A DNA stretch of 36,108 bases, taken from positions 1-36,108 of the IMG/VR virus record IMGVR_UViG_3300020595_000091; one strand, given 5' to 3'. The DNA is from a virus. This document shows, one piece after another, positions 1,051 to 36,108 of the stretch (positions are counted from its first letter, which is position 1; each line of letters opens with the position of its first letter). The translations under genes were made by a program, and so were the position numbers. Below the pieces are notes generated by a model, which saw only the letters and a list, made by a program, of their open reading frames with translations, did no database searches and had not been told where the DNA came from.

Positions 1051-2457
1051 ATGCTCAACGAACGTAAACTTACCAAGTCAGAACTTGACAGACGCGAAGA
1101 TATCATTCAAGATATGAAAAAAAACAAGCGTGGACTTGTTAAGCGTTATGGTAAGGATGCGGAAAAGGTAATGTATGGTCGTGCCACTAACCTAGCTAAA
1201 AAGAAAACAGAAGCAATGGATCAAGATAGACTAAAAGAAATGGTTAAAACTGCATTGATGGGTCCTATGAAGGAAGATCAAGTAGAAGAAGGAAATGCCT
1301 TCATCGTAGCTGCAGATGCTGCTAGAGACGCAGGTAAAAAAGAATTCGAATTTCCTGAAGGTAGTGGTAAAATTCACCCTGTTAAAATCAAAAACGATAT
1401 TAACGAATGGGGTAGTTCAGACCAGTTTGCTTTACACCAATCAATGCATAGAACCTTAGGTGAACCAACAGAATTCCCAGGTTTATCTAAAATCATGCTT
1501 GCTGCTGAAGATGCTACAGAGTTCTACATGGACGATTTCCCAGAGTATGAAACTGATAGAGAAGATTTGATACTAAATAACGCTCGTAGTTATGCTAGAA
1601 AGATGTTTCCTGATTTTATGGCTAACGCTGCTAGACTTATGGAACCTTTAGATGAAGAAAAATCCGTAGTTACTGAAAGTAAAGAAGCGGGTTTAGATGA
1701 ACTAAGAAGTATTATAGACCAAGCATCAGTTTTAGGTGAAGAAGCAAGAAATATTATTGCAGCCTACTTCCCATCATATTTAGCTCAAGGTGAAGCTTAT
1801 GGTGTGTTTAACTTTGTAGAAAGTTCTAACCCATACGATAACACATTAGTCTCTATGGTAGAAGATATCGAAGGCGACGAAGATTCATACGAAGGGGATG
1901 ACGAAGATCTTGAAGAAGGGTTGAAAGACAAACTTAAGGGAGCCTTTGTAGGGGTGTTAGGAACTTTAGGCATCCAAAAATATGGAATGGATGTACTTAA
2001 TACCATCATGAACGCTTTACCTCCTGAGAAAGCTCAAGAATTTAGCGATTACATCGAAGGTACATTACATTTAATTAATCAATCCCCATTAGAAGAGGAT
2101 CTAGATCTTGGACATCAGGACAACGAGCCACATATGTTAAAAGCTGATCTATATCGTATTGGAAAATATGCTATGGAACTTTATCAAATGGTAGATGGTT
2201 TTGAAGGTGAAGGTGAAGTAGATTTCCCACACTGGTGGCAATCAAAGATTGTTAAATCAAAAGATGCTTTAGTAGGTGCAAAACACTACTTAGATTTTGA
2301 GGTTAACGAACCACAAATCGATGCTATGGTAGATGTAGCTCAAGATGTTGAAGCTATTGATGAGTTTGATGATAAATCTATGAAGGCCTATGGAGATGCT
2401 GTTAAAAAAGCTTATGGGGTTGCTGAAAAACTAGCTAAACAATTAAAGTCTAAATAA
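1051..2457 (+). CDS. Phage protein with RYGKDAEKVMY motif, probable virion component
   Basis: A 468-residue protein. Residues ~6-52 form a strongly basic helical segment (LTKSELDRREDIIQDMKKN, then KRYGKDAEKVMYGRAT, then KKK). From memory, similar segments recur in proteins of marine T4-like and other environmental phages. Residues ~56-80 (MDQDRLKEMVKTALMG...VEEG) look like the Lys/Glu helix of the upstream acidic gene. The rest is acidic and mostly helical: a very acidic linker near residues 268-290 leads to a GLKDKLKGAFVGVLGTLG segment with small hydrophobic residues, then further helices. No enzyme motif was recognised. It begins two bases after the histone-like gene and shares one base with the next gene, so these are probably co-translated. 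A role as an internal or minor virion protein is inference. Confidence 0.8.
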   Translation: MLNERKLTKSELDRREDIIQDMKKNKRGLVKRYGKDAEKVMYGRATNLAKKKTEAMDQDRLKEMVKTALMGPMKEDQVEEGNAFIVAADAARDAGKKEFEFPEGSGKIHPVKIKNDINEWGSSDQFALHQSMHRTLGEPTEFPGLSKIMLAAEDATEFYMDDFPEYETDREDLILNNARSYARKMFPDFMANAARLMEPLDEEKSVVTESKEAGLDELRSIIDQASVLGEEARNIIAAYFPSYLAQGEAYGVFNFVESSNPYDNTLVSMVEDIEGDEDSYEGDDEDLEEGLKDKLKGAFVGVLGTLGIQKYGMDVLNTIMNALPPEKAQEFSDYIEGTLHLINQSPLEEDLDLGHQDNEPHMLKADLYRIGKYAMELYQMVDGFEGEGEVDFPHWWQSKIVKSKDALVGAKHYLDFEVNEPQIDAMVDVAQDVEAIDEFDDKSMKAYGDAVKKAYGVAEKLAKQLKSK

Positions 2458-2900
2458 TGACTAGAGAGGAACTTATTGCTAAAATCAAATCACTTGCTCC
2501 AACTGCTTATTCTGCTGTTAAAAAAGCAGAAGTAACAGCCGTTGAGTATGATGAACTAACCAAGTTCCCTGAACTTAAAGCTGTAATCGTAGATCTATTA
2601 GGTCACGATTATGCTAAGTTTATAGATGCTATTGATTGGGTAGCTCCTAAACCTACAACATTTAGAATTAACCTTTTGAATGGTCAATCCTTTTATTTAG
2701 TTTATACTGATAGAAGTTGGATTGCTGAGGTAGAAGGTAAAAAATATTACTTACTTAATCTAAATGAAGAGCAAAATGCTACAAATGCTATTGCTCGTAT
2801 TTTAAGATATGGAGCTGCTGATGAAGATACTGAGTCAGTTGATGTAGAAGGAAGCGAAGACATTTCAGTAGATGCTTCAGATTCAGAAGAAACAGAATAA
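2457..2900 (+). CDS. Hypothetical phage protein with acidic tail
   Basis: A 147-residue protein whose ATG overlaps the previous TAA by one base (TAATG). Residues 1-60 are helical (MTREELIAKIKSLAP...). Residues ~66-110 look like a small beta-rich domain (TTFRINLLNGQSFYLVYTDR, then WIAEVEGKKYYLLNLN) followed by a helix (NATNAIARILRYGA). The last ~30 residues are almost entirely Asp, Glu, Ser and Val. No known family was recognised. The tight coupling to its neighbours suggests it belongs to the same virion or cargo operon. Confidence 0.75.
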   Translation: MTREELIAKIKSLAPTAYSAVKKAEVTAVEYDELTKFPELKAVIVDLLGHDYAKFIDAIDWVAPKPTTFRINLLNGQSFYLVYTDRSWIAEVEGKKYYLLNLNEEQNATNAIARILRYGAADEDTESVDVEGSEDISVDASDSEETE

Positions 2901-2905
2901 GTTAA

Positions 2906-4054
2906 ATGGACGCATTAGAAAGATATTTAAATAGAGTAGCTTATAAATTTGATAAAGGTTACCCTGACGTCAATGACCCCAAAGACATGGAAATGTTAAT
3001 GGAGATGGTTAGTTCTATAGTTGAAGCTGAGGAAGAAAAACCAAAAATCACAAAAAATGATTTAATTTCTTTAATCAAGGATTTAGATTTAGACGATAAT
3101 CAAATCTCTAAACTATTTAATCGTACTAAAAACTTTACTACCTACCGTCCAATCAAACAAACTTTAGATAAAAAACAATACAATCCTATTATCTTAAAGA
3201 AATTTTCAAAAGAAATTCAAGATTTAATTGAAGATATTCCTAAAAAAGAAGTAGACGATTTTATTGCTTATTTAAATAACCCTGACGAAAAAATAAATTT
3301 CCCTACTAATACTAAAGGTAATTTATTTACCGCCTTATCTAAAACAGGTGTACCTAACGAAGTAGTAGATAAAATTATCTACCACACTTCCCAGGATGAA
3401 GGTAAAAGAGGTGTTGGTATGGGAGAAGTTGGTATGTCTCTTTTATTTAATAATATAGGTTCTTCAACTTCAGGTAAAGGTGATTTATCCATAGATGGTG
3501 AAGAATTTGAGATTAAAGGTGAAGGTGCTACTTTAGGTGATAAACCATCAAATCTATCAGGTGTGATAAATAATAAATTAGGACCTTTTGGTATTGAAGT
3601 AAAAGGTGGTCGTCAAGGGGTTGAATTTGAAGATAAAAAATACCCAATGAACCAATTTACTTCAGTTATATCTGATGCTTATAAAGCCACAGACGATAAA
3701 ACTGGATTTAAACAAGCATTTGGTGATATCTTAGCTAATGATAATGGTTTAGGAGATAGTGTTAATGTTTTATTAAATGATATAAATTTTGATTCTCCTG
3801 AGTCTATTCAAACCAACGTAGCTTTAATGAACTTTATTCGTTATTCTGGTAAAGAAGGATTTACTCATTTTTTAGCTCATGATTTTGGAGCTAAGGGTCC
3901 AAATACTGGTGAGTATATTTATGTTAAGGGTTCACCTGAAGCAATGGCACAACAATTAAAATCAGCAGGTGCTAAATTTGAAAAATTAACCCCCAATAAC
4001 TTAAGACCAAGAATTGGTTTTGGTTCAAAATTAATAGCTGAAGACGAAGAATAA
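2906..4054 (+). CDS. PD-(D/E)XK nuclease-like protein, predicted packaged
   Basis: A 382-residue protein. Residues 1-40 form a helical leader ending in SSIVE|AEEE, which matches the (L/I)xE|(A/G) rule of T4-type prohead proteases, with E40 as the predicted cut. Residues ~45-130 are helical. The central part carries a recognisable nuclease core: Glu174 in a helix (GMGEVGMSLL), Asp193 in KGDL, and Glu202-Ile-Lys204 in EEFEIKG. This order and spacing is typical of PD-(D/E)XK metal-dependent nucleases. The C-terminal ~150 residues are mixed and end in an acidic tail. It lies five bases after the previous gene and two before the next. A nuclease carried in the capsid and ejected into the host, or acting in packaging, is inference. 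It could also be an inactive structural relative. Confidence 0.78.
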   Translation: MDALERYLNRVAYKFDKGYPDVNDPKDMEMLMEMVSSIVEAEEEKPKITKNDLISLIKDLDLDDNQISKLFNRTKNFTTYRPIKQTLDKKQYNPIILKKFSKEIQDLIEDIPKKEVDDFIAYLNNPDEKINFPTNTKGNLFTALSKTGVPNEVVDKIIYHTSQDEGKRGVGMGEVGMSLLFNNIGSSTSGKGDLSIDGEEFEIKGEGATLGDKPSNLSGVINNKLGPFGIEVKGGRQGVEFEDKKYPMNQFTSVISDAYKATDDKTGFKQAFGDILANDNGLGDSVNVLLNDINFDSPESIQTNVALMNFIRYSGKEGFTHFLAHDFGAKGPNTGEYIYVKGSPEAMAQQLKSAGAKFEKLTPNNLRPRIGFGSKLIAEDEE

Positions 4055-4055
4055 T

Positions 4056-4688
4056 ATGTGTGATTGTGGATGTGGAGGTTGTTCACCAACTAAACCAGTA
4101 TTGATAAATGAAAACTTAGCTCCCAAAGAAATTTTATCTGAGGGACTTAAGTATCACATGGATAACGCACGACCTCTTACCGAGCACGTGTATCGCGCGG
4201 GGTCACAAAAATATTTTGAATTATGGGCTGAAGCCCGCGCTTTATACACACGTGGTATATTAGAGGTGCAAGGTGATGATCTACAGGTATTAACTGAAAC
4301 AGATTTAGGTCATTTCGGTATAGTTGAAGGTCAAAAAGTACCATTAGATTTCCCTATCGAATTAACAGAAGGTGAAATCGATGAGGCTAAAAAGAAGAAA
4401 GCTAAGAAAAATACTAAAAAATTAAATAAACCAATGCGTGACTCTTCAGGGGGTAAAGCATATAAGGTTTATGTTAAAGACCCTAAAACCGGAAATATCA
4501 AAACAGTACGTTTTGGTTCAGGTGGTTTAAGAGCAAAAATCAACGATAAAAAAGCACGTAATGCGTTTGCTAAACGTCACAAATGTGCTCAAAAGAAGGA
4601 TAAAACTAAAGCAGGGTATTGGTCTTGCCGCTTACCACGTTATGCAAAATTACTCGGACTCAAATCAAACTTTGGTGGGTTCTGGTAA
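4056..4688 (+). CDS. Phage virion-type protein with N-terminal Cys cluster and basic C-terminal domain
   Basis: A 210-residue protein in two parts. The N-terminus is MCDCGCGGCS, with Cys at 2, 4, 6 and 9, unusual for a phage protein and suggestive of metal binding. Residues ~15-107 include ARPLTEHVYRAGSQKYFEL and TDLGHFGIVEGQKVPLDFPI, a pattern I associate with conserved proteins of marine T4-like phages. Three (L/I)xE|G sites occur, at E29, E91 and E105. After a Lys-rich linker (~110-125), the C-terminal domain (KAYKVYVKDPKTGNIKTVRFG, then RHKCAQKKDKTKAGYWSCRL) resembles DUF5872-like phage domains, with a CxnC pair that could bind zinc. Cleavage at E105 would release the basic domain, which could bind DNA. 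Exact function is unknown. Confidence 0.78.
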   Translation: MCDCGCGGCSPTKPVLINENLAPKEILSEGLKYHMDNARPLTEHVYRAGSQKYFELWAEARALYTRGILEVQGDDLQVLTETDLGHFGIVEGQKVPLDFPIELTEGEIDEAKKKKAKKNTKKLNKPMRDSSGGKAYKVYVKDPKTGNIKTVRFGSGGLRAKINDKKARNAFAKRHKCAQKKDKTKAGYWSCRLPRYAKLLGLKSNFGGFW

Positions 4689-5812: not shown

Positions 5813-7165
5813 ATGGCAGAAAAACTAGTAATCGTAGGTGCTGGTGTAGCAGGTGTTAATGCTGCAACTAAGCTAGTAGACAACGGATTCCCCGGAAAAA
5901 ACATTACAATCATTGATATGGGTAAAGATCCATATCGCAGACCATATTCAGAAGTAATGACTGGATTTTTAGGTGCTGGGGGTTGGAGTGATGGTAAATT
6001 AACTTACCACACAGCAATTGGAGGACATATGTCTAAGTATTGTGGTGAGGATAAAGCAATGGAATTGTTTGATGAGGTAATCAACAATTTTAAACGTTTT
6101 CATCCTAAACCAGAGGAAGTACAATGTTCCAACCCAGTAGCGGAACCAGATTTTATTAAACCATATTTTGGTTTACGTTTATTCCCTGTATGGCACGTTG
6201 GTACGGATTATCTACACGAAATAGGTAAAAATTGGTATGACTTTTTAGTTGATAAAGGTGTTGAGTTTATTTGGGAAACTAAAGTAACAGCTATCGATTT
6301 TGAAAGACAAATAGCACATTTTTCAGATCCAGAAGACCCAACAATCATAGGTCGAAAATACAATAAACTAATGTTTGCTGTTGGTAAATCAGGTATTGAC
6401 TTTGGTAAACAATTAGCTACAGATTATACATTACCTACTGAACCAAAACCAGTACAAATAGGTGTTCGATTTGAAGCACCACAGAAACACTTTCAAAAAC
6501 TTATTGATGTAAGTTATGATTTCAAATTGTATCGTAAATTCGAAGACAAAGGAGTATCACTACGTTCCTTCTGTACTAACAACAACGCAGCTTATGTTGC
6601 CGTTGAAGAAACGTATGGAGATCATTCGTACAATGGACACGCCAAAAAAGACGAATCATTCAGAAATAACATGACCAACTTTGGTATCTTGATGGAAGTT
6701 CAAGGTATTGATGAACCATTTACTTGGTCTAGAGAGTTAGTATCTAAAGTAAATAAAGATGGTACTGGTTTATATTATAGCCCAACACGTACTCCATCTA
6801 CAACATCTGAAGGTGAGAATGTAAGCGCTGTCACTATTAGTGAAATGGATGAAGTAAGAGAAGCATTCCAAGGTTACTATACGTACATTGATGATTTTAT
6901 TGATGATATGAAAAAAGTATTCCCAACACTTGGGGATGATTGGGGTGTTTATATTCCTGAAGTTAAGTATCTATCACCTGAACCATTGGTTAACTATGAA
7001 ACACTATCATTAGTTGATTATGATAACGTTCACTTTGTAGGTGATGCTCTATCAGCTCGTGGTATCACAGTATCAGGGGCACAAGGAATATATGTTGCCG
7101 ATGCTTTACTATCAGCATTACAATCCGAATCAGAAGAATTTCCAGAGTTTATTGAAAACTACTAG
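5813..7165 (+). CDS. FAD-dependent dehydrogenase (NAD(FAD)-utilizing, COG2509-like)
   Basis: A 450-residue protein. The N-terminus has a Rossmann dinucleotide-binding fold: LVIVGAGVAGVNAA (GxGxxG at residues 9-14) and an acidic strand end at Asp35 (ITIIDMGK). GAGGWSDGKL (~54-63) matches the GGxGxxSDGKL signature of the COG2509-type uncharacterised FAD dehydrogenases. PVQIGVRFEAP and SLRSFCTNNNAAYVAVEE match other conserved stretches of that group. The C-terminal HFVGDALSARGITVSGAQG is the second FAD-contact motif (GD...G...A..G). The protein looks complete and intact. The substrate is unknown. It is the only clear metabolic oxidoreductase in the window and lies between virion genes, so it is a likely auxiliary metabolic gene. 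The start is the first ATG, after an A-rich leader without a Shine-Dalgarno site. Confidence 0.85.
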   Translation: MAEKLVIVGAGVAGVNAATKLVDNGFPGKNITIIDMGKDPYRRPYSEVMTGFLGAGGWSDGKLTYHTAIGGHMSKYCGEDKAMELFDEVINNFKRFHPKPEEVQCSNPVAEPDFIKPYFGLRLFPVWHVGTDYLHEIGKNWYDFLVDKGVEFIWETKVTAIDFERQIAHFSDPEDPTIIGRKYNKLMFAVGKSGIDFGKQLATDYTLPTEPKPVQIGVRFEAPQKHFQKLIDVSYDFKLYRKFEDKGVSLRSFCTNNNAAYVAVEETYGDHSYNGHAKKDESFRNNMTNFGILMEVQGIDEPFTWSRELVSKVNKDGTGLYYSPTRTPSTTSEGENVSAVTISEMDEVREAFQGYYTYIDDFIDDMKKVFPTLGDDWGVYIPEVKYLSPEPLVNYETLSLVDYDNVHFVGDALSARGITVSGAQGIYVADALLSALQSESEEFPEFIENY

Positions 7166-8065: not shown

Positions 8066-8431
8066 ATGAGACGTTCAGAATTAGCAGAATATATTAAAGA
8101 AACAATCGTAGAATTGCTTTCTGAAGCATCACCTGAAGAGGTAGAAGCTCAAAAAGACCTAAATAAAGAATTAGAAAAAACAGTTGAATTATCTAAAGAA
8201 CTTTCTGAAGATATTGATGACGAAGATGAAGCTGATAAAGCAGCATCTAAAGCAGCTAGTGGTAAAGATTCTATTTCTAAAATTGCTGGTGAACTTCAAC
8301 GAGTTAAAAAACATATGAAGACACATTTAGAAATGTATAAAAGTGCTGAAGGTGAGCAAGCAAAGCAAGCCGCTTTAAATATGCTTAAAAAGTTAACAGC
8401 TGAAAAAAATAGACTTGAAAAATTACTTTAA
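8066..8431 (+). CDS. Small acidic coiled-coil protein with capsid-targeting-like leader
   Basis: A 121-residue protein. Residues 1-20 (MRRSELAEYIKETIVELLSE) form an amphipathic helix ending in LSE20|A21. This is the layout of T4 internal-protein capsid-targeting leaders removed by gp21. The remaining ~100 residues are charged heptad-like helices (KDLNKELEKTVELSKELSE, then ELQRVKKHMKTHLEMYKSA), probably a coiled coil. There are no Cys and few aromatic residues. It precedes the terminase block and overlaps the start of the next gene by 17 bases. A packaged internal protein or core component is inferred. A small scaffold helper is the alternative. Confidence 0.7.
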   Translation: MRRSELAEYIKETIVELLSEASPEEVEAQKDLNKELEKTVELSKELSEDIDDEDEADKAASKAASGKDSISKIAGELQRVKKHMKTHLEMYKSAEGEQAKQAALNMLKKLTAEKNRLEKLL

Positions 8432-14417: not shown

Positions 14418-15479
14418 ATGAAAACACTACAAGAACAATACAATTTATTAAAGGAAGGTAAAGGAAACGCTGATGTGTTTTTAAAATCTGCCCGTAGACT
14501 ATTCCCAGAACATGTTACAAACCATGCTACTAAGGAAGAAGCGACTACTATTTTAAAACAAAAACAAATCATTACAGAAAACTTTGTAGGATTTGAACCA
14601 ATCACTAAGATTGAATCCACCAAAACTTCATATGAGACAGCATTTGCTAATTTCTTAGCTGAAGAAGCAAAAGTTGAAGAAAAAAAAGTATCTAAAGATG
14701 TTGAAGAAACTCAAGAAAGTTCTTTCGATTATAAAGACGATAAGAATATTGACAATTTATTCGGCGAGCAGTTCCTTAGAGGATACTACGCGGAAATGAA
14801 AGATCCTAAGAATGCAGACAAGGACGTAGATGAGTTAAAAGAAATCGTAGCTAAAAACTTAGCTAAAGATAGAAGTTACTACGTAAAAAATGCTGCGTTC
14901 GGTGTTAAAGATATTGGCTATACAGATGAAGCAGTTGCTTTAAAAGCATCTAAATCAGATGAAATGGAAGAAGTAAAATTAAAGGAAAGTAACATCTCAC
15001 TAGTTGATATGATATCTGAATCTTTAATAGAGGCATATTCTGAATTCCAACGCGACGATAAAGGTTCAAAAGATGTAGACGCTAAAGACAAAGGTGAAGA
15101 AGATGCATTTGGAGCTGGAGTTGAAAAAGGTGAAAAAATCGAAAAAGCTAAAGCTAAGAAAAAAGTTAAAAAAGAATCTATAGAATCTAAATTATCTGAA
15201 ATCGAAAAAGAAGGTAAAGCTGTTACTATGGAAGCTCAAATGGATGCTTTAGAAGAACTAATTGCTTCTAAGACACAAAGAGTAGAAATGGTTAACGAAG
15301 ATGATGACTTAGCAGAGTTAGCAGATAAGAAGAAAATTAAAGCCATGCAAAAAGAAATCAAGGATCTAGAAAAACGTAGAGCCAAGATGGAAAAAGTGTA
15401 TGAAAAAATGTGTGGTATGAAATACGTTAAACAAGAGATTGTTGACGAATCAGAAGTATCTGAACAATACGAAGACTAA
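14418..15479 (+). CDS. Conserved prohead/core-type protein, highly charged
   Basis: A 353-residue protein. The N-terminus MKTLQEQYNLLKEGKGNADV contains LKE13|G14, a good T4-type prohead protease site. NLFGEQFLRGYYAEMKDPKN and YYVKNAAFGVKDIGYTDEA form a more ordered middle. Residues ~205-290 are extremely charged (KGEKIEKAKAKKKVKKESIE), and the C-terminus is a coiled coil (KKKIKAMQKEIKDLEKRRAK). It sits directly before the prohead protease and shares one base with it. The composition and site suggest a core or internal protein processed during head maturation. A TATTTATT variant lies three bases before the ATG. The specific role is unknown. Confidence 0.75.
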   Translation: MKTLQEQYNLLKEGKGNADVFLKSARRLFPEHVTNHATKEEATTILKQKQIITENFVGFEPITKIESTKTSYETAFANFLAEEAKVEEKKVSKDVEETQESSFDYKDDKNIDNLFGEQFLRGYYAEMKDPKNADKDVDELKEIVAKNLAKDRSYYVKNAAFGVKDIGYTDEAVALKASKSDEMEEVKLKESNISLVDMISESLIEAYSEFQRDDKGSKDVDAKDKGEEDAFGAGVEKGEKIEKAKAKKKVKKESIESKLSEIEKEGKAVTMEAQMDALEELIASKTQRVEMVNEDDDLAELADKKKIKAMQKEIKDLEKRRAKMEKVYEKMCGMKYVKQEIVDESEVSEQYED

Positions 15480-16084
15480 TGAGAAAAGTACTAGTAGAAA
15501 CTCAATTATTTAAACCTAAGGGTTTAATGCTATCAGAAGGTAAAATGTCTGATAGAGGTAACCCTATGGTTGAGGGTATACTAGCGACTGCTGAAGTTAA
15601 AAACGGTAATGGTCGTTATTATCCTAAAGAACTTTGGGATAGAGAAATTGATAAGTATATGTTATCTGTAGATGAAAACAGAGCATTAGGTGAGTTAGAC
15701 CACCCAGAATCATCAGTAATCAATCTCAAAAACGTTTCACATAATATTAAAGATATGTGGTGGGACGGAGATAAAGTAATGGGTAAAATAGAGATTCTAC
15801 CTACCCCATCAGGTAATATTCTAAAAGCACTAATCGAAAGCAATATCACAGTAGGTGTTTCATCTCGTGGTATGGGTTCTTTAGAAGATAGAGATGGTGT
15901 ATTAGAGGTACAAGATGATTTCGAACTATTATGTTGGGATTTTGTATCAACCCCATCAAACCCAGGTTCTTATATGTCTGTGATTAAAGAGGGAAAAGAA
16001 GTCCACATAGACCCATATAAAGATCTAAACAGCTTGATTAACGAAATATTATGTGCTAATACATGCACATGTTATTTAGACTAA
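15479..16084 (+). CDS. gp21: Prohead core protease (T4 gp21-like)
   Basis: A 201-residue serine protease of the T4 gp21 type (T4 form about 212 residues). RYYPKELWDREIDKY and GELDHPESSVINLKNVSHNI carry the catalytic His75, and GVSSRGMGSLEDRDG the nucleophile region (Ser128/129). DFELLCWDFVSTPSNPGS is the usual C-terminal core. The start VETQLFKPKGLMLSEGK contains LSE20|G21, a plausible self-cleavage site. The enzyme cleaves scaffold, capsid and internal proteins after (L/I)xE inside the prohead. It is coupled by one base to the upstream gene and followed by a terminator-like hairpin. The Cys-rich C-terminus (CANTCTCYLD) is odd. Confidence 0.93.
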   Translation: MRKVLVETQLFKPKGLMLSEGKMSDRGNPMVEGILATAEVKNGNGRYYPKELWDREIDKYMLSVDENRALGELDHPESSVINLKNVSHNIKDMWWDGDKVMGKIEILPTPSGNILKALIESNITVGVSSRGMGSLEDRDGVLEVQDDFELLCWDFVSTPSNPGSYMSVIKEGKEVHIDPYKDLNSLINEILCANTCTCYLD

Positions 16085-17364: not shown

Positions 17365-18996
17365 ATGTCACAATTAAACACACTTTTAGAAAGCGCAGCT
17401 GGTTCTTGGAAGAACTTACAGTCTGACGCAGCTAGATTATCTAGCAAGTGGGGACAGACTGGACTTCTCGAAGGAATGGAAGGACAATCGTCTAACAACA
17501 TGTCAATGTTGCTTGAAAACCAAGCAAAACAATTGGTAGTAGAGGCTTCAAGTACTGCAGGTGCTGCTATCTCAGATACTGATAACTTCTCAGGAACAGG
17601 TGCTCAGTGGGCAGGTGTTGCTTTACCATTGGTAAGAAAAGTATTCGGTAACATCGCTGCTCAAGAATTCGTTTCTGTACAGCCTATGAACTTGCCTTCT
17701 GGTCTAGTATTTTATCTAGATTTCCAATACGGTGATTCAAAAGCTCCTTTCGCTGCTAACGGTTCACTTTACGGTGATGCTTCAGCTAACTTCGGTAACG
17801 AAGCAGAAGGTGGTCTTTACGGTGCTGGAAGATATTCTTACTCTATCAATACTCACACTGCTTCTATTGCAGCTGTAACTTCTTCAGTAGCATTTACTGA
17901 TGTAAACTATGATTCAGATTACGTAGTAACTGGTTCTTTATCTAAAGTAACTTTAGATGCTTCAGGTGTAAGTAGCGATATGGATTCTTTAGCTGTTAGA
18001 TCATTCACTATCGTAGGTGGTGCTGTAACTAACGCTAATGTATTATCTCAGTTTACTGCTTATGATGCAGTTAATGATGAGTTAATATTCATCGTAAACT
18101 CTGCTGCTATCGCTCAACCTCAATCTGTTGAGTTAGGTTACTCATTGAAAACATCTGCTGTATCAAGAGGTGATTTCGAAGATGGAAACGCAATGGCTAC
18201 TGATTCTGATTGGGACGGCTCAACTGCTGATATCTCTATTCCAGAAATCAACATCCAAATGAAGTCGGAAGCAATCGTTGCTAAGACTCGTAAGTTGAAA
18301 GCAGTTTGGACTCCTGAGTTCGCTCAAGATTTGAACGCTTACCAATCAATCGATGCTGAAGCTGAAGTAACTAACATGCTTTCTGAGTACATTTCTTTAG
18401 AGATTGACTTAGAGATCTTAGACATGTTGATTAAAGATGCTGCTGCTGGTGATGAGTACTGGTCTGCTAAAAACAACGTAACTATTTCTGCTGGTGATAG
18501 CGCTGGTGATTTCGGTGATGCTGGATTCTTCAACACACAAGGTCAGTGGTTCCAAACTTTAGGTACTAAAATGCAGAAACTAAGCAACAAGATTCACCAA
18601 AGAACTCTTAGAGGTGGTGCTAACTTCGTTGTTGTTTCTCCAACTGTAGCTACTATCTTAGAGTCAATCCCAGGATTTGCTGCTAACTCTGATGGTGACG
18701 TATCTAAAGCTTCTTACGCTTTCGGCGTACAGAAAGCTGGTCAGATGAACAGTCGTTACACTGTATACAAAAACCCATACATGAAAGAAAACACTATCTT
18801 GATGGGCTTTAGAGGATCTCAGTTCTTGGAAGCTGGTGCGGTATTCGCTCCATACATTCCATTAATCATGACTCCTTTAGTATACGATCCAGATACATTC
18901 ACTCCACGTAAAGGTCTATTGACTCGTTACGCGAAGAAAATGTTACGTCCAGAATTCTATGGTCGTATCTTTGTAAACGGATTGAACTCTCTATAA
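17365..18996 (+). CDS. gp23: Major capsid protein (T4 gp23-like)
   Basis: A 543-residue protein (T4 gp23 is 521). VSVQPMNLPSGLVFYLDFQYG matches the conserved QPMxxPtGxvfxxxxxYG region. RGGANFVVVSPTVATILES, YTVYKNPYMKENTILMGFRG, GAVFAPYIPLIMTPLVYDPD and FTPRKGLLTRYAKK follow in the gp23 order. The N-terminal propeptide ends at VVE60|A61, close to the T4 cleavage after residue 65. Residues ~150-270 form a Ser/Ala/Asp-rich insert specific to this phage. Codon use favours a restricted set, as expected for high expression. A strong terminator follows. Confidence 0.96.
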   Translation: MSQLNTLLESAAGSWKNLQSDAARLSSKWGQTGLLEGMEGQSSNNMSMLLENQAKQLVVEASSTAGAAISDTDNFSGTGAQWAGVALPLVRKVFGNIAAQEFVSVQPMNLPSGLVFYLDFQYGDSKAPFAANGSLYGDASANFGNEAEGGLYGAGRYSYSINTHTASIAAVTSSVAFTDVNYDSDYVVTGSLSKVTLDASGVSSDMDSLAVRSFTIVGGAVTNANVLSQFTAYDAVNDELIFIVNSAAIAQPQSVELGYSLKTSAVSRGDFEDGNAMATDSDWDGSTADISIPEINIQMKSEAIVAKTRKLKAVWTPEFAQDLNAYQSIDAEAEVTNMLSEYISLEIDLEILDMLIKDAAAGDEYWSAKNNVTISAGDSAGDFGDAGFFNTQGQWFQTLGTKMQKLSNKIHQRTLRGGANFVVVSPTVATILESIPGFAANSDGDVSKASYAFGVQKAGQMNSRYTVYKNPYMKENTILMGFRGSQFLEAGAVFAPYIPLIMTPLVYDPDTFTPRKGLLTRYAKKMLRPEFYGRIFVNGLNSL

Positions 18997-29274: not shown

Positions 29275-31467
29275 ATGGCTCAAATTAATATTCAATATAC
29301 CTCTGGTAGCGCTGTAGATAATCCTGGAACTGGACAAATAGCGATATTTACCTCAGGCTCCTTAGGTAACTCTTCACTATTTTTAAAAGAATCTGATGGT
29401 AATATTATCACTGTAGGAAGTGGTAGTGGCGGCGGTGGTGGTCCTCAGGGTCCAACTGGTCCTCAGGGTCCAAGTGGTCCTGCAGGTTCTGTAGGTGCAA
29501 CAGGTGCAACAGGTGCTCAAGGTCCTAGTGGTGCTACAGGTGCCCAAGGTCCTATTGGTCCTACAGGAGCAGCTTCAACAGTAGCAGGCCCTACAGGTCC
29601 TACAGGTCCTAGTGGTCCTAGTGGTGTAGCAGGTCCTAGTGGTGTAGCAGGTGCAACAGGAGCTCAAGGTCCTAGTGGTGCTACAGGTGCTCAAGGTCCT
29701 ATTGGTGCTACAGGTGCTGCAGGTTCAACAGGTGCTCAAGGTCCTAGTGGTGCTACAGGTGCTCAAGGTCCTATTGGTCCTATTGGTCCTATTGGTGCTA
29801 CAGGTGCTGCAGGTTCAACAGGTGCTCAAGGTCCTAGTGGTCCTAGTGGTGTAGCAGGTCCTAGTGGTGCAGCAGGTGCAACAGGTGCTCAAGGTCCTAG
29901 TGGTGCTACAGGTGCTCAAGGTCCTATTGGTCCTATTGGTGCTACAGGTGCTGCAGGTTCAACAGGTGCTCAAGGTCCTAGTGGTCCTAGTGGTGTAGCA
30001 GGTCCTAGTGGTGTAGCAGGTGCAACAGGTGCTCAAGGTCCTAGTGGTGCTACAGGTGCTCAAGGTCCTACAGGTCCTACAGGAGCAGCTTCAACAGTAG
30101 CAGGTCCAACAGGTGCTCAAGGTGCTCAAGGTGCTACAGGTGCTCAAGGTGCTACAGGTGCTCAAGGTGCTACAGGTCCTAGTGGTCCTATTGGTCCTAT
30201 TGGTCCTATTGGTCCTACAGGAGCAGATTCAACAGTAGCAGGTCCTACTGGTCCTACTGGTCCTAGCGGTCCTATTGGTGCTACAGGTGCCCAAGGTGCT
30301 ACAGGTGCCCAAGGTGCTACAGGTGCTACAGGTCCTAGCGGTCCTATTGGTCCTATTGGTCCTACAGGAGCAGATTCAACAGTAGCAGGTCCTACTGGTC
30401 CTACGGGTCCTAGTGGTCCTATTGGTGCTACAGGTGCCCAAGGTGCTACAGGTCCTAGTGGTCCTATTGGTCCTATTGGTCCTATTGGTCCTACAGGAGC
30501 AGATTCAACAGTAGCAGGTCCTACTGGTCCTACTGGTCCTAGCGGTCCTATTGGTCCTATTGGTCCTATTGGTCCTACAGGTACTACAGGTGCTCAAGGT
30601 GCTACAGGTCCTAGCGGTCCTATTGGTCCTATTGGTGCTACAGGTGCTGCAGGTTCAACAGGTATTCAAGGTCCTACAGGTCCTACTGGTCCTGCAGGAA
30701 CAGCAGATGCTTATTATACAGGTTCTTTAGTTGTAGCTGATTATGATACTATTAACTTCAAAGGAACAGGAGTTAAAGTTGTAGCTTCGGGATCACAAGG
30801 TATTGAAGTTGAAGTAACTAGTGGTACTGGTGGAGGTGGAGCCTCATATAACCCAGTTATTAGATATGAAGTAACTTCAGGTAATAACGTAGCACAACTG
30901 TTATCATCAGGTAACGTAGAAGGTGGTTTAAGTTGGACTCGTTCAGGTGCTACCTTAACAGTTACTAAAGTCTCTCACGGCTTATCAACTGGAGACTACG
31001 TTATAATCAGAAATATGAGTGAAGATTATACATATGTTTCTATTACTTCAACTGGGACTGATACTTTTACAGCTACAGTAGCTAGTTCAGGTGATACTAG
31101 TGGTGATGAAGGTGCTTATATCCCAGCATTTGATGTTTCAGCTTTAACAAACACAGCTTTAACTCTAGAATCTCCATCATCAGGGAACGTACAACTTATT
31201 TCAGTAACTACGTTCTTAGACCAAATGGAAGATGCTACTATTACAGTAACTGTTCCTAATAACGCTATAACAAATGGTGCTGGTAAGCAGAATACTTTAA
31301 ACTCTAGAGTACCAGCCGCATTTAACTATTATAATGTTGGGGGTTCTAGCTCAAGTCAAGTAAACGCAGCATCCCTAACTTTTAGTACAACTACTAACCA
31401 TAATATTTACTCATTATCAGGTGGTTTAGATGTGTTTGGGGATGTATTATACACTTTACATTTCTAA
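29275..31467 (+). CDS. Collagen-like fibre protein 1 (730 aa)
   Basis: The N-terminal ~55 residues ([20 protein letters not shown]...[14 protein letters not shown]) are a short attachment domain followed by a Gly linker. Residues ~56-477 are Gly-X-Y collagen triplets, about 140, mostly [12 protein letters not shown] and GAQ, interrupted several times by STVA after GAA or GAD. The C-terminal ~250 residues form a beta-rich head ([20 protein letters not shown]...), which probably trimerises and binds the receptor. Collagen repeats make long trimeric rods in phage fibres. A terminator follows directly. Confidence 0.9.
29440..30705 (+). repeat. Collagen-coding repeat tract 1
   Basis: About 1.27 kb of near-identical nine-base units (GGTCCTAGT, GGTCCTATT, GGTGCTACAGGTGCTCAA and similar) coding Gly-X-Y. 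A limited synonymous codon choice makes the DNA itself highly repetitive, which would favour slippage and recombination. Confidence 0.9.
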
Positions 31468-35146: not shown

Positions 35147-36108
35147 ATGCCAAATTGGAAAAAAGTCATCGTCTCCGGAAGCGATGCAACACTTAACAGT
35201 ATTGAAGCTACAGGGGGTCTAACTCTAGGTTCCCTCCCCGCCCAAACATCTGAAAATACTATTCTTACCATAAACTCCAGTGGTATAGTAGGTACTAAAG
35301 AACAAAGCGCAGGTCCTATTGGTCCTATCGGTCCTACAGGTCCTACAGGAGCTCAAGGTCCTATTGGTCCACAAGGTGCTCAAGGTCCTATCGGACCACA
35401 AGGTGCTATTGGTCCTATAGGTCCTATCGGTCCTCAAGGTGCTATCGGTCCTCAAGGTGCTATCGGTCCTCAAGGTGCTATCGGTCCTATTGGACCACAA
35501 GGTGCTATTGGTCCTATTGGTCCTATTGGTCCTATTGGTCCTACGGGTTCTACAGGAGCTCAAGGTCCTATTGGTCCTATTGGTCCACAAGGAGCTCAAG
35601 GTCCTATCGGTCCTCAAGGTGCTATTGGTCCTATTGGTCCACAAGGTGCTCAAGGTCCTATTGGCCCACAAGGTGCTATCGGTCCTATTGGTCCTATTGG
35701 TCCTATAGGCCCTACGGGTTCTACAGGAGCTCAAGGTCCTATCGGTCCTATTGGTCCACAAGGTGCTCAAGGTCCTATCGGTCCTCAAGGTGCTATTGGT
35801 CCTATTGGCCCAATCGGTCCTATTGGTCCTACGGGTTCTACAGGAGCTCAAGGTCCTATTGGTCCTATTGGTCCACAAGGTGCTATCGGTCCTATCGGAC
35901 CACAAGGTGCTATCGGTCCTATCGGACCACAAGGTGCTATCGGTCCTATCGGGCCACAAGGTGCTCAAGGTCCTATTGGCCCACAAGGCGCTATCGGTCC
36001 TATTGGTCCTATTGGTCCTATAGGCCCTACGGGTTCTACAGGAGCTCAAGGTCCTATTGGTCCTATTGGTCCACAAGGTGCTATCGGTCCTATCGGACCA
36101 CCAGGTGC
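35147..36108 (+). CDS. Collagen-like fibre protein 2, truncated at the window end
   Basis: The frame starts [20 protein letters not shown] and stays open to the last base, so the 3' end lies outside the window. The first ~12 residues match the anchor of the 32775 fibre. After a short domain ([20 protein letters not shown]) Gly-X-Y triplets begin at about residue 56 and continue to the end, mostly GPI, GPQ, GAI and GAQ, with GPTGSTGAQ recurring. It is thus a second collagen-like fibre, distinct in composition from the first (Ile/Gln-rich rather than Thr/Ser-rich). Length and C-terminal tip cannot be seen. Confidence 0.88.
35312..36108 (+). repeat. Collagen-coding repeat tract 2
   Basis: The tract is made of nine-base units GGTCCTATT, GGTCCACAA, GGTGCTATC and near variants to the window end. 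A marker segment CCTACGGGTTCTACAGGAGC recurs at 35540, 35711, 35828 and 36026, at spacings of 171, 117 and 198 bases, all multiples of nine. Confidence 0.9.

Follow-up and report, generated by a model that had tools for sequence, protein, structure and literature searches.

A two-part gene next to T4-like head genes

The window, by which we mean the whole 36,108-base stretch of viral DNA that was analysed, carries an intact open reading frame at 2906–4054 on the plus strand that starts with ATG and encodes 382 residues; the gene called in an earlier sequence-only reading of this DNA is therefore real. Its product has two parts. The leader, codons 1–40 (MDALERYLNRVAYKFDKGYPDVNDPKDMEMLMEMVSSIVE; 2906–3025, plus strand), is common to 118 distinct proteins and is proposed here to be a capsid-targeting sequence. 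The body, codons 41–382 with the stop codon (3026–4054, plus strand), is predicted to be a PD-(D/E)XK nuclease from residue conservation, a structure model and fold matches. A putative prohead-protease site, E40|A41 (IVE|A; 3023–3028, plus strand), lies at their junction. The window protein matched no informative family in Pfam, NCBIfam or PHROGs, and among 50 relatives compared with the same three collections the clear matches were limited to PHROGs of unknown function. Among annotated proteins the closest homologue is gp078 (YP_010114605.1) of Flavobacterium phage immuto 2-6A, whose isolation host is Flavobacterium sp. LMO8. This protein resembles that of the window in having the leader, an E..GD..ExK body, an upstream gene of the same family and a position close to TerL and portal. 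It differs in being a hypothetical protein of 25% identity (over 57% of the query) with a EWAFRCKKGYPD-type leader.

The gene adjoins the head-gene region of a T4-like contig; portal, prohead protease and capsid protein are all found in the window. The S77 prohead protease (15479–16084, plus strand; Pfam PF03420, E 1.2e-31; PHROG head maturation protease) is the presumed cutter of the leader. The gp23-like major capsid protein (17365–18996, plus strand) shares synteny and similarity with Gp23, the major capsid protein annotated in immuto. Two flanking genes mark the locus: the upstream gene at 2457–2900 (plus strand) has a homologue, usually just upstream, in 93 of the 118 distinct leader loci, and the downstream gene at 4056–4688 (plus strand), which marks the locus in the marine group, has one in 52. 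In most loci the leader gene is followed by either the 4056–4688 homologue or TerL. In the immuto-type group the locus adjoins TerL and portal, and a third group (L142–L158) has neither of the two marker genes nor TerL as neighbours. Since the flanking genes are fixed, the many body types described below occupy one locus.

Other genes of the window were seen in passing. A 450-residue protein at 5813–7165 is predicted, by its sequence alone, to be FAD/NAD-dependent oxidoreductase-like; it is syntenic in 41 of the 118 loci and is an unusual metabolic gene for a head-gene region. Collagen-like proteins with GPTG/GATG repeats, encoded at 29275–31467 and about 35225–36076, are probably fibres.

One leader precedes many unrelated bodies

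A search with the first 50 residues returned 164 loci, from which 80 were retained; more came from searching with the leader of the immuto type. The final set comprised 161 locus records, some of which overlap within a contig, and represented 118 distinct proteins, with one leader ORF per locus. The bodies behind the leader fell into 13 BLAST clusters that are mostly unrelated: profile comparison linked c0, the cluster of the window protein, to c2, c5 and c12, and c4 to c6, and the remaining clusters had no clear sequence relation. One conserved leader on otherwise unrelated proteins is the arrangement of the T4 type, and we found it here across 118 proteins and 13 clusters, as well as in pairs of loci that differ by a swapped body. 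In an alignment of 50 proteins, leader residues K17–D21 and D27 are invariant. AlphaFold predicts two leader helices, 3–14 and 25–40, at low confidence. The leader named in the sequence-only reading is a real, separate module.

When two types of this leader were compared by tblastn with 50,697 phage records (E ≤1), only immuto phages and one uncultured phage were matched. The T4-type phage records gave no match, and by this measure the leader is not a homologue of the T4 capsid-targeting sequence. In bacterial genomes the leader matched only two phage-like contigs, in Bacteroidota MAGs, and it therefore looks phage-borne. In the open-licence literature we found no description of this leader or of these nucleases.

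Cassette exchange of the bodies behind the leader

The exchange of bodies is directly visible in the DNA. Loci L022 and L077 are 95.7% identical until 113 nt past the ATG, encode unrelated bodies (c4 and c1) and are again 94–98% identical from the stop codon; L032 and L139 have the same swap pattern. The window and L004 behave likewise, with leader DNA that is 88.8% identical to codon 35, unrelated bodies thereafter, and homology again from 4050. DNA identity of the window with both L003 and L004 resumes at about 4050–4055. Pairs with sequence-unrelated bodies were counted as swap pairs when each of the two junction blocks was at least 85% identical. This gave 31 pairs from 32 loci in 9 body-type combinations, the pairs not being independent events. 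Over these 31 non-independent pairs the left break of homology has its median at nt 121 (quartiles 113–133), and the sequences become homologous again at the stop codon (median −1). What is exchanged is the body, as a cassette behind the leader, and the recombination break near codon 40 coincides with the predicted cut at E40|A41. In the clean swap pairs, where homology resumes at the stop codon, there is no swapped immunity gene directly downstream; extra downstream genes are present in some loci.

The window body is very probably a PD-(D/E)XK nuclease

The catalytic segment (3425–3517, plus strand) encodes E174 (3425–3427), D193 (3482–3484), E202 (3509–3511) and K204 (3515–3517), the residues whose spacing the sequence-only reading had likened to that of PD-(D/E)XK nucleases. 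All four are at the positions it gave and are invariant in 42 family members, in the order of a PD-(D/E)XK active site: an acidic residue, D, then (D/E/S)xK. At a conservation filter of 93%, the only body columns to pass in the 42-member alignment were G171, E174, G192, D193, E202 and K204, and all of them are invariant. The motif is not due to chance, because its residues, with G171 and G192, alone stay invariant in the 42 proteins. In an alignment of 10 relatives, each 20–28% identical to the window protein, the body columns without variation include G171, G173, E174, G192, D193, E202 and K204.

AlphaFold modelled the window protein with moderate confidence (mean pLDDT 62; 70–89 in much of the core). 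In the model E174 opens helix 174–180, D193 just precedes strand 194–196, and E202 and K204 lie within the next strand, 199–205, which is the helix and strand order expected for the PD-(D/E)XK superfamily. The VIA matches listed for the model are HinP1I, MspI, Hjc resolvase, restriction endonuclease 3ndh, Rai1 and eIF3d, every one of which we take to have a restriction-endonuclease-like fold or a relative of that fold. In this comparison with nuclease folds, which the earlier reading had suggested, the listed matches are consistent in kind of fold but weak, with Z values of at most 3.7, and Foldseek against the PDB gave no significant match for the window-protein model or for the model of a c1 body. 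Sequence searches of the PDB with profiles of c0, c2 and c7 likewise returned nothing meaningful. Taken alone, the modelled structure points only weakly to a nuclease fold; the conservation of residues is a strong argument, and on it the window body is very probably a PD-(D/E)XK nuclease.

We also considered tetranucleotide palindromes as a clue to a recognition site and set them aside: AATT, GATC and CTAG are low, GCGC and CCGG are not, and no site is indicated. As a separate observation, AATT, GATC and CTAG are under-represented across the window relative to Markov expectation (scores −6.2, −5.9 and −5.4), possibly through avoidance of host restriction sites.

Most other body types also look nuclease-like. 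In c1 (29 sequences) E132, D181, S193 and K195 are invariant, and the c1 model is good (pLDDT 88.8). Its residues 86–303 match HinP1I with Z 6.4 over 161 residues at 4.0 Å, HhaI with Z 5.4 and Hjc with Z 4.6, all below the value of 8 under which the tool warns of a possibly common arrangement. In c7, all four members have a PADLOC REase_II match. An E..D..(E/S)xK order, read by eye with freedom of choice, can be made out in all clusters except the singleton L023, though which acidic residue counts as the upstream one is doubtful for c8 (two members) and some singletons. A fixed D..(E/S)xK expression, written after these sequences were seen, matches 56–100% of each of c0–c7 compared with 14% of other ORFs and 9–21% of shuffles, and misses c8, c10 and c12.

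Two of these bodies have features of a different kind. In the c1 protein at L004:5121–6098, residues 1–87 of the model, which adjoin the nuclease part, match nucleotidyltransferase folds (CD-NTase, Z 6.5; ANT(2''), Z 6.4). The body at L023:6001–6717 is the sole one that lacks a nuclease signature, and it carries a GTGYYF motif. We rejected its assignment as an ADP-ribosyltransferase, for which this motif is the sole basis and Pfam and PDB searches were null.

A putative processing site and a second leader nearby

The leader ends in SSIVE|AEEE, and the E40/A41 site of the sequence-only reading was read correctly. As an internal standard for such sites we used the major capsid protein of the window, whose LVVE60|A, like IVSE|A of the immuto capsid protein, resembles the IVE|A of the leader; we take this place in the capsid proteins to be the T4 gp23 cleavage position. 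The same reading had invoked the T4 gp21 cleavage rule, which the window protein follows perfectly. Among relatives with a KGYPD leader, however, the strict form (L/I)xE|(A/G/S) occurs in 35%, compared with 20% of other N-termini from the same loci. The site type is enriched over shuffles in residues 28–58. The strict rule is a weak signature of the family, and cleavage of the window protein at E40|A41 is plausible from its sequence.

A second conserved leader, NF(D/N)L..FL.E.KL, occurs on neighbour genes within 3.5 kb in 70 of the 118 loci, often several per locus, for example at L005:16101–17401, at 1668 and 2076 in L003, and at 811 and 4567 in L004. It is found on 112 distinct proteins with 38 body clusters and usually ends in hydrophobic-x-E; in both leader types the residue after this E is often another E. 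This second leader resembles the T4 capsid-targeting sequence. Elsewhere in the window, a small coiled protein (8066–8431) that is conserved in L003 and has LLSE|A closing its N-terminal stretch at residue 20 is a candidate for another packaged protein.

Discussion

The sequence-only reading had pictured a single packaged nuclease. Beyond it, our comparison indicates that one leader carries many unrelated, mostly nuclease-like bodies that are exchanged at one locus. We propose that this leader, about 40 residues long, is a capsid-targeting sequence: it would carry the protein into the prohead of the T4-like phage, and there the S77 protease of the phage would probably cut the leader off at E40|A41. 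The PD-(D/E)XK endonuclease would then be carried in the head and ejected with the genome, and in a new host it may cut non-self DNA, be it the host chromosome, rival phages or plasmids. Unrelated nuclease bodies would be exchangeable by recombination because the leader alone would suffice for loading, and each phage would carry one nuclease from a shared pool. We favour capsid targeting as the function of the leader because of its modular arrangement, the late head-gene setting with an S77 protease, the IVE|A site, the neighbours with a second leader and the T4 precedent; delivery of the nuclease by the capsid is accordingly likely.

In T4, internal proteins that are alike only in their leader enter the host by injection and act there as inhibitors of different GmrSD enzymes (PMC12373910), and the T4 targeting sequence has loaded foreign proteins, including staphylococcal nuclease, into heads (PMC3012670). 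Ip1–Ip3 of T4 and their T-even variants (PMC12373910; PMC3012670, citing Repoila et al. 1994) are, like the proteins described here, late proteins of T4-like phages that combine a conserved N-terminal leader with bodies lacking sequence similarity, at a polymorphic locus and with a hydrophobic-x-E site near the leader end. Here, in contrast, the leader of about 40 residues has no T4-type match and occurs once per locus instead of several times, and the bodies, probably packaged, are predicted nucleases whereas Ip1–3 are inhibitors of type IV restriction enzymes. Given the lack of a T4-type match, we class the locus as working like the T4 internal-protein locus and not as a member of it.

Other known systems share parts of this organization. 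MuF polymorphic toxins (PMC5576092) likewise join an N-terminal part linked to the head or packaging to variable C-terminal effectors and are proposed to be delivered by phage, but they belong to temperate phages of Firmicutes and use a domain, whereas we see a short leader in T4-like phages of Flavobacteriia; when 50 leader proteins were scanned with Pfam (E ≤0.05), none had a MuF match. Polyvalent proteins and T4 Alt (PMC5512222) are effectors for which packing into the head and injection together with DNA are known or predicted, as we infer here. Polyvalent proteins are multidomain and often include zincin-like peptidases, unlike the single leader with mostly one predicted nuclease body found at this locus. 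In the models the order of the catalytic residues is like that of the type II restriction endonucleases HinP1I, MspI and HhaI and of Hjc, and the fold resembles theirs at low Z (at most 3.7 for the window protein and 6.4 for c1); no sequence similarity to these enzymes was detected.

Taken as a whole, a two-part protein of leader and nuclease body that is injected with the genome and cuts DNA in the new host is our best explanation of the gene product, and we give it slightly better than an even chance of being right. Counting against it are the limited occurrence of the strict cleavage rule among relatives, the lack of a leader match in T4-type records and the weak structural matches of the window protein; moreover, a packaged nuclease must spare the genome beside it, and in the clean pairs no immunity gene is swapped with the body. 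Candidate routes of self-protection are therefore sequence specificity, DNA modification, or an absence of active metal from the head. For the T4-like phages of Flavobacteriia and related hosts in general, the proposal that a head-loading leader serves interchangeable, injected, restriction-endonuclease-like nucleases of many unrelated sequence families, one per phage, directed at host or rival DNA and with no partner immunity gene, falls somewhat short of even.

The protein might instead be a late nuclease that is never injected and acts in the producing cell, in packaging, debranching or the exclusion of rivals, with the leader docking to terminase, portal or prohead. The position beside TerL and portal in the immuto-type group fits such a role, as do the resemblance of the window model to Hjc resolvase and the poor conservation of the cleavage rule. 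A packaging or debranching function should hold one fold, however, and the bodies are mostly unrelated by sequence; a recombination break at the predicted protease site is also better explained by removal of the leader, and we regard this reading as unlikely. The bodies could also be delivered by the capsid as counter-defence, restriction-endonuclease-like decoys or inhibitors of host nucleases and not enzymes themselves. Strong polymorphism would suit an arms race of this kind, and injected T4 proteins that share only a leader do inhibit different restriction enzymes (PMC12373910). Yet the few invariant positions in c0 and c1 are the catalytic ones, a pattern that fits selection for catalysis and not for partner binding, which makes decoys or inhibitors distinctly improbable.

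The sharp edges of exchange, near codon 40 and at the stop codon, raise a further reading: the cassettes may be selfish endonucleases that spread into co-infecting phages by cutting alleles without them, with the shared leader and the flanking DNA serving as arms for recombination. Competition of co-infecting phages through an endonuclease is known (PMC11620839). At this locus, though, bodies of different types substitute for one another at a single site, always with one leader ORF, and the protein sequence of the leader is kept in divergent groups of phages, something that a role in recombination would not by itself require. We consider selfish cassettes very improbable and retain the packaged, injected nuclease as the preferred reading.

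T-even phages are the best-known source of injected internal proteins that share a leader, and the ones tested there are inhibitors. The same logic would operate here with nucleases predicted to be catalytic; its scale is large, and the phages, from marine and other aquatic settings, have been little studied. For metagenomes, the leader would provide a simple tag of injected effectors and a guide to a pool of undescribed nucleases, and it is a possible loading signal for cargo. It also makes testable how a virus packs a DNA-cutting enzyme beside its own genome.
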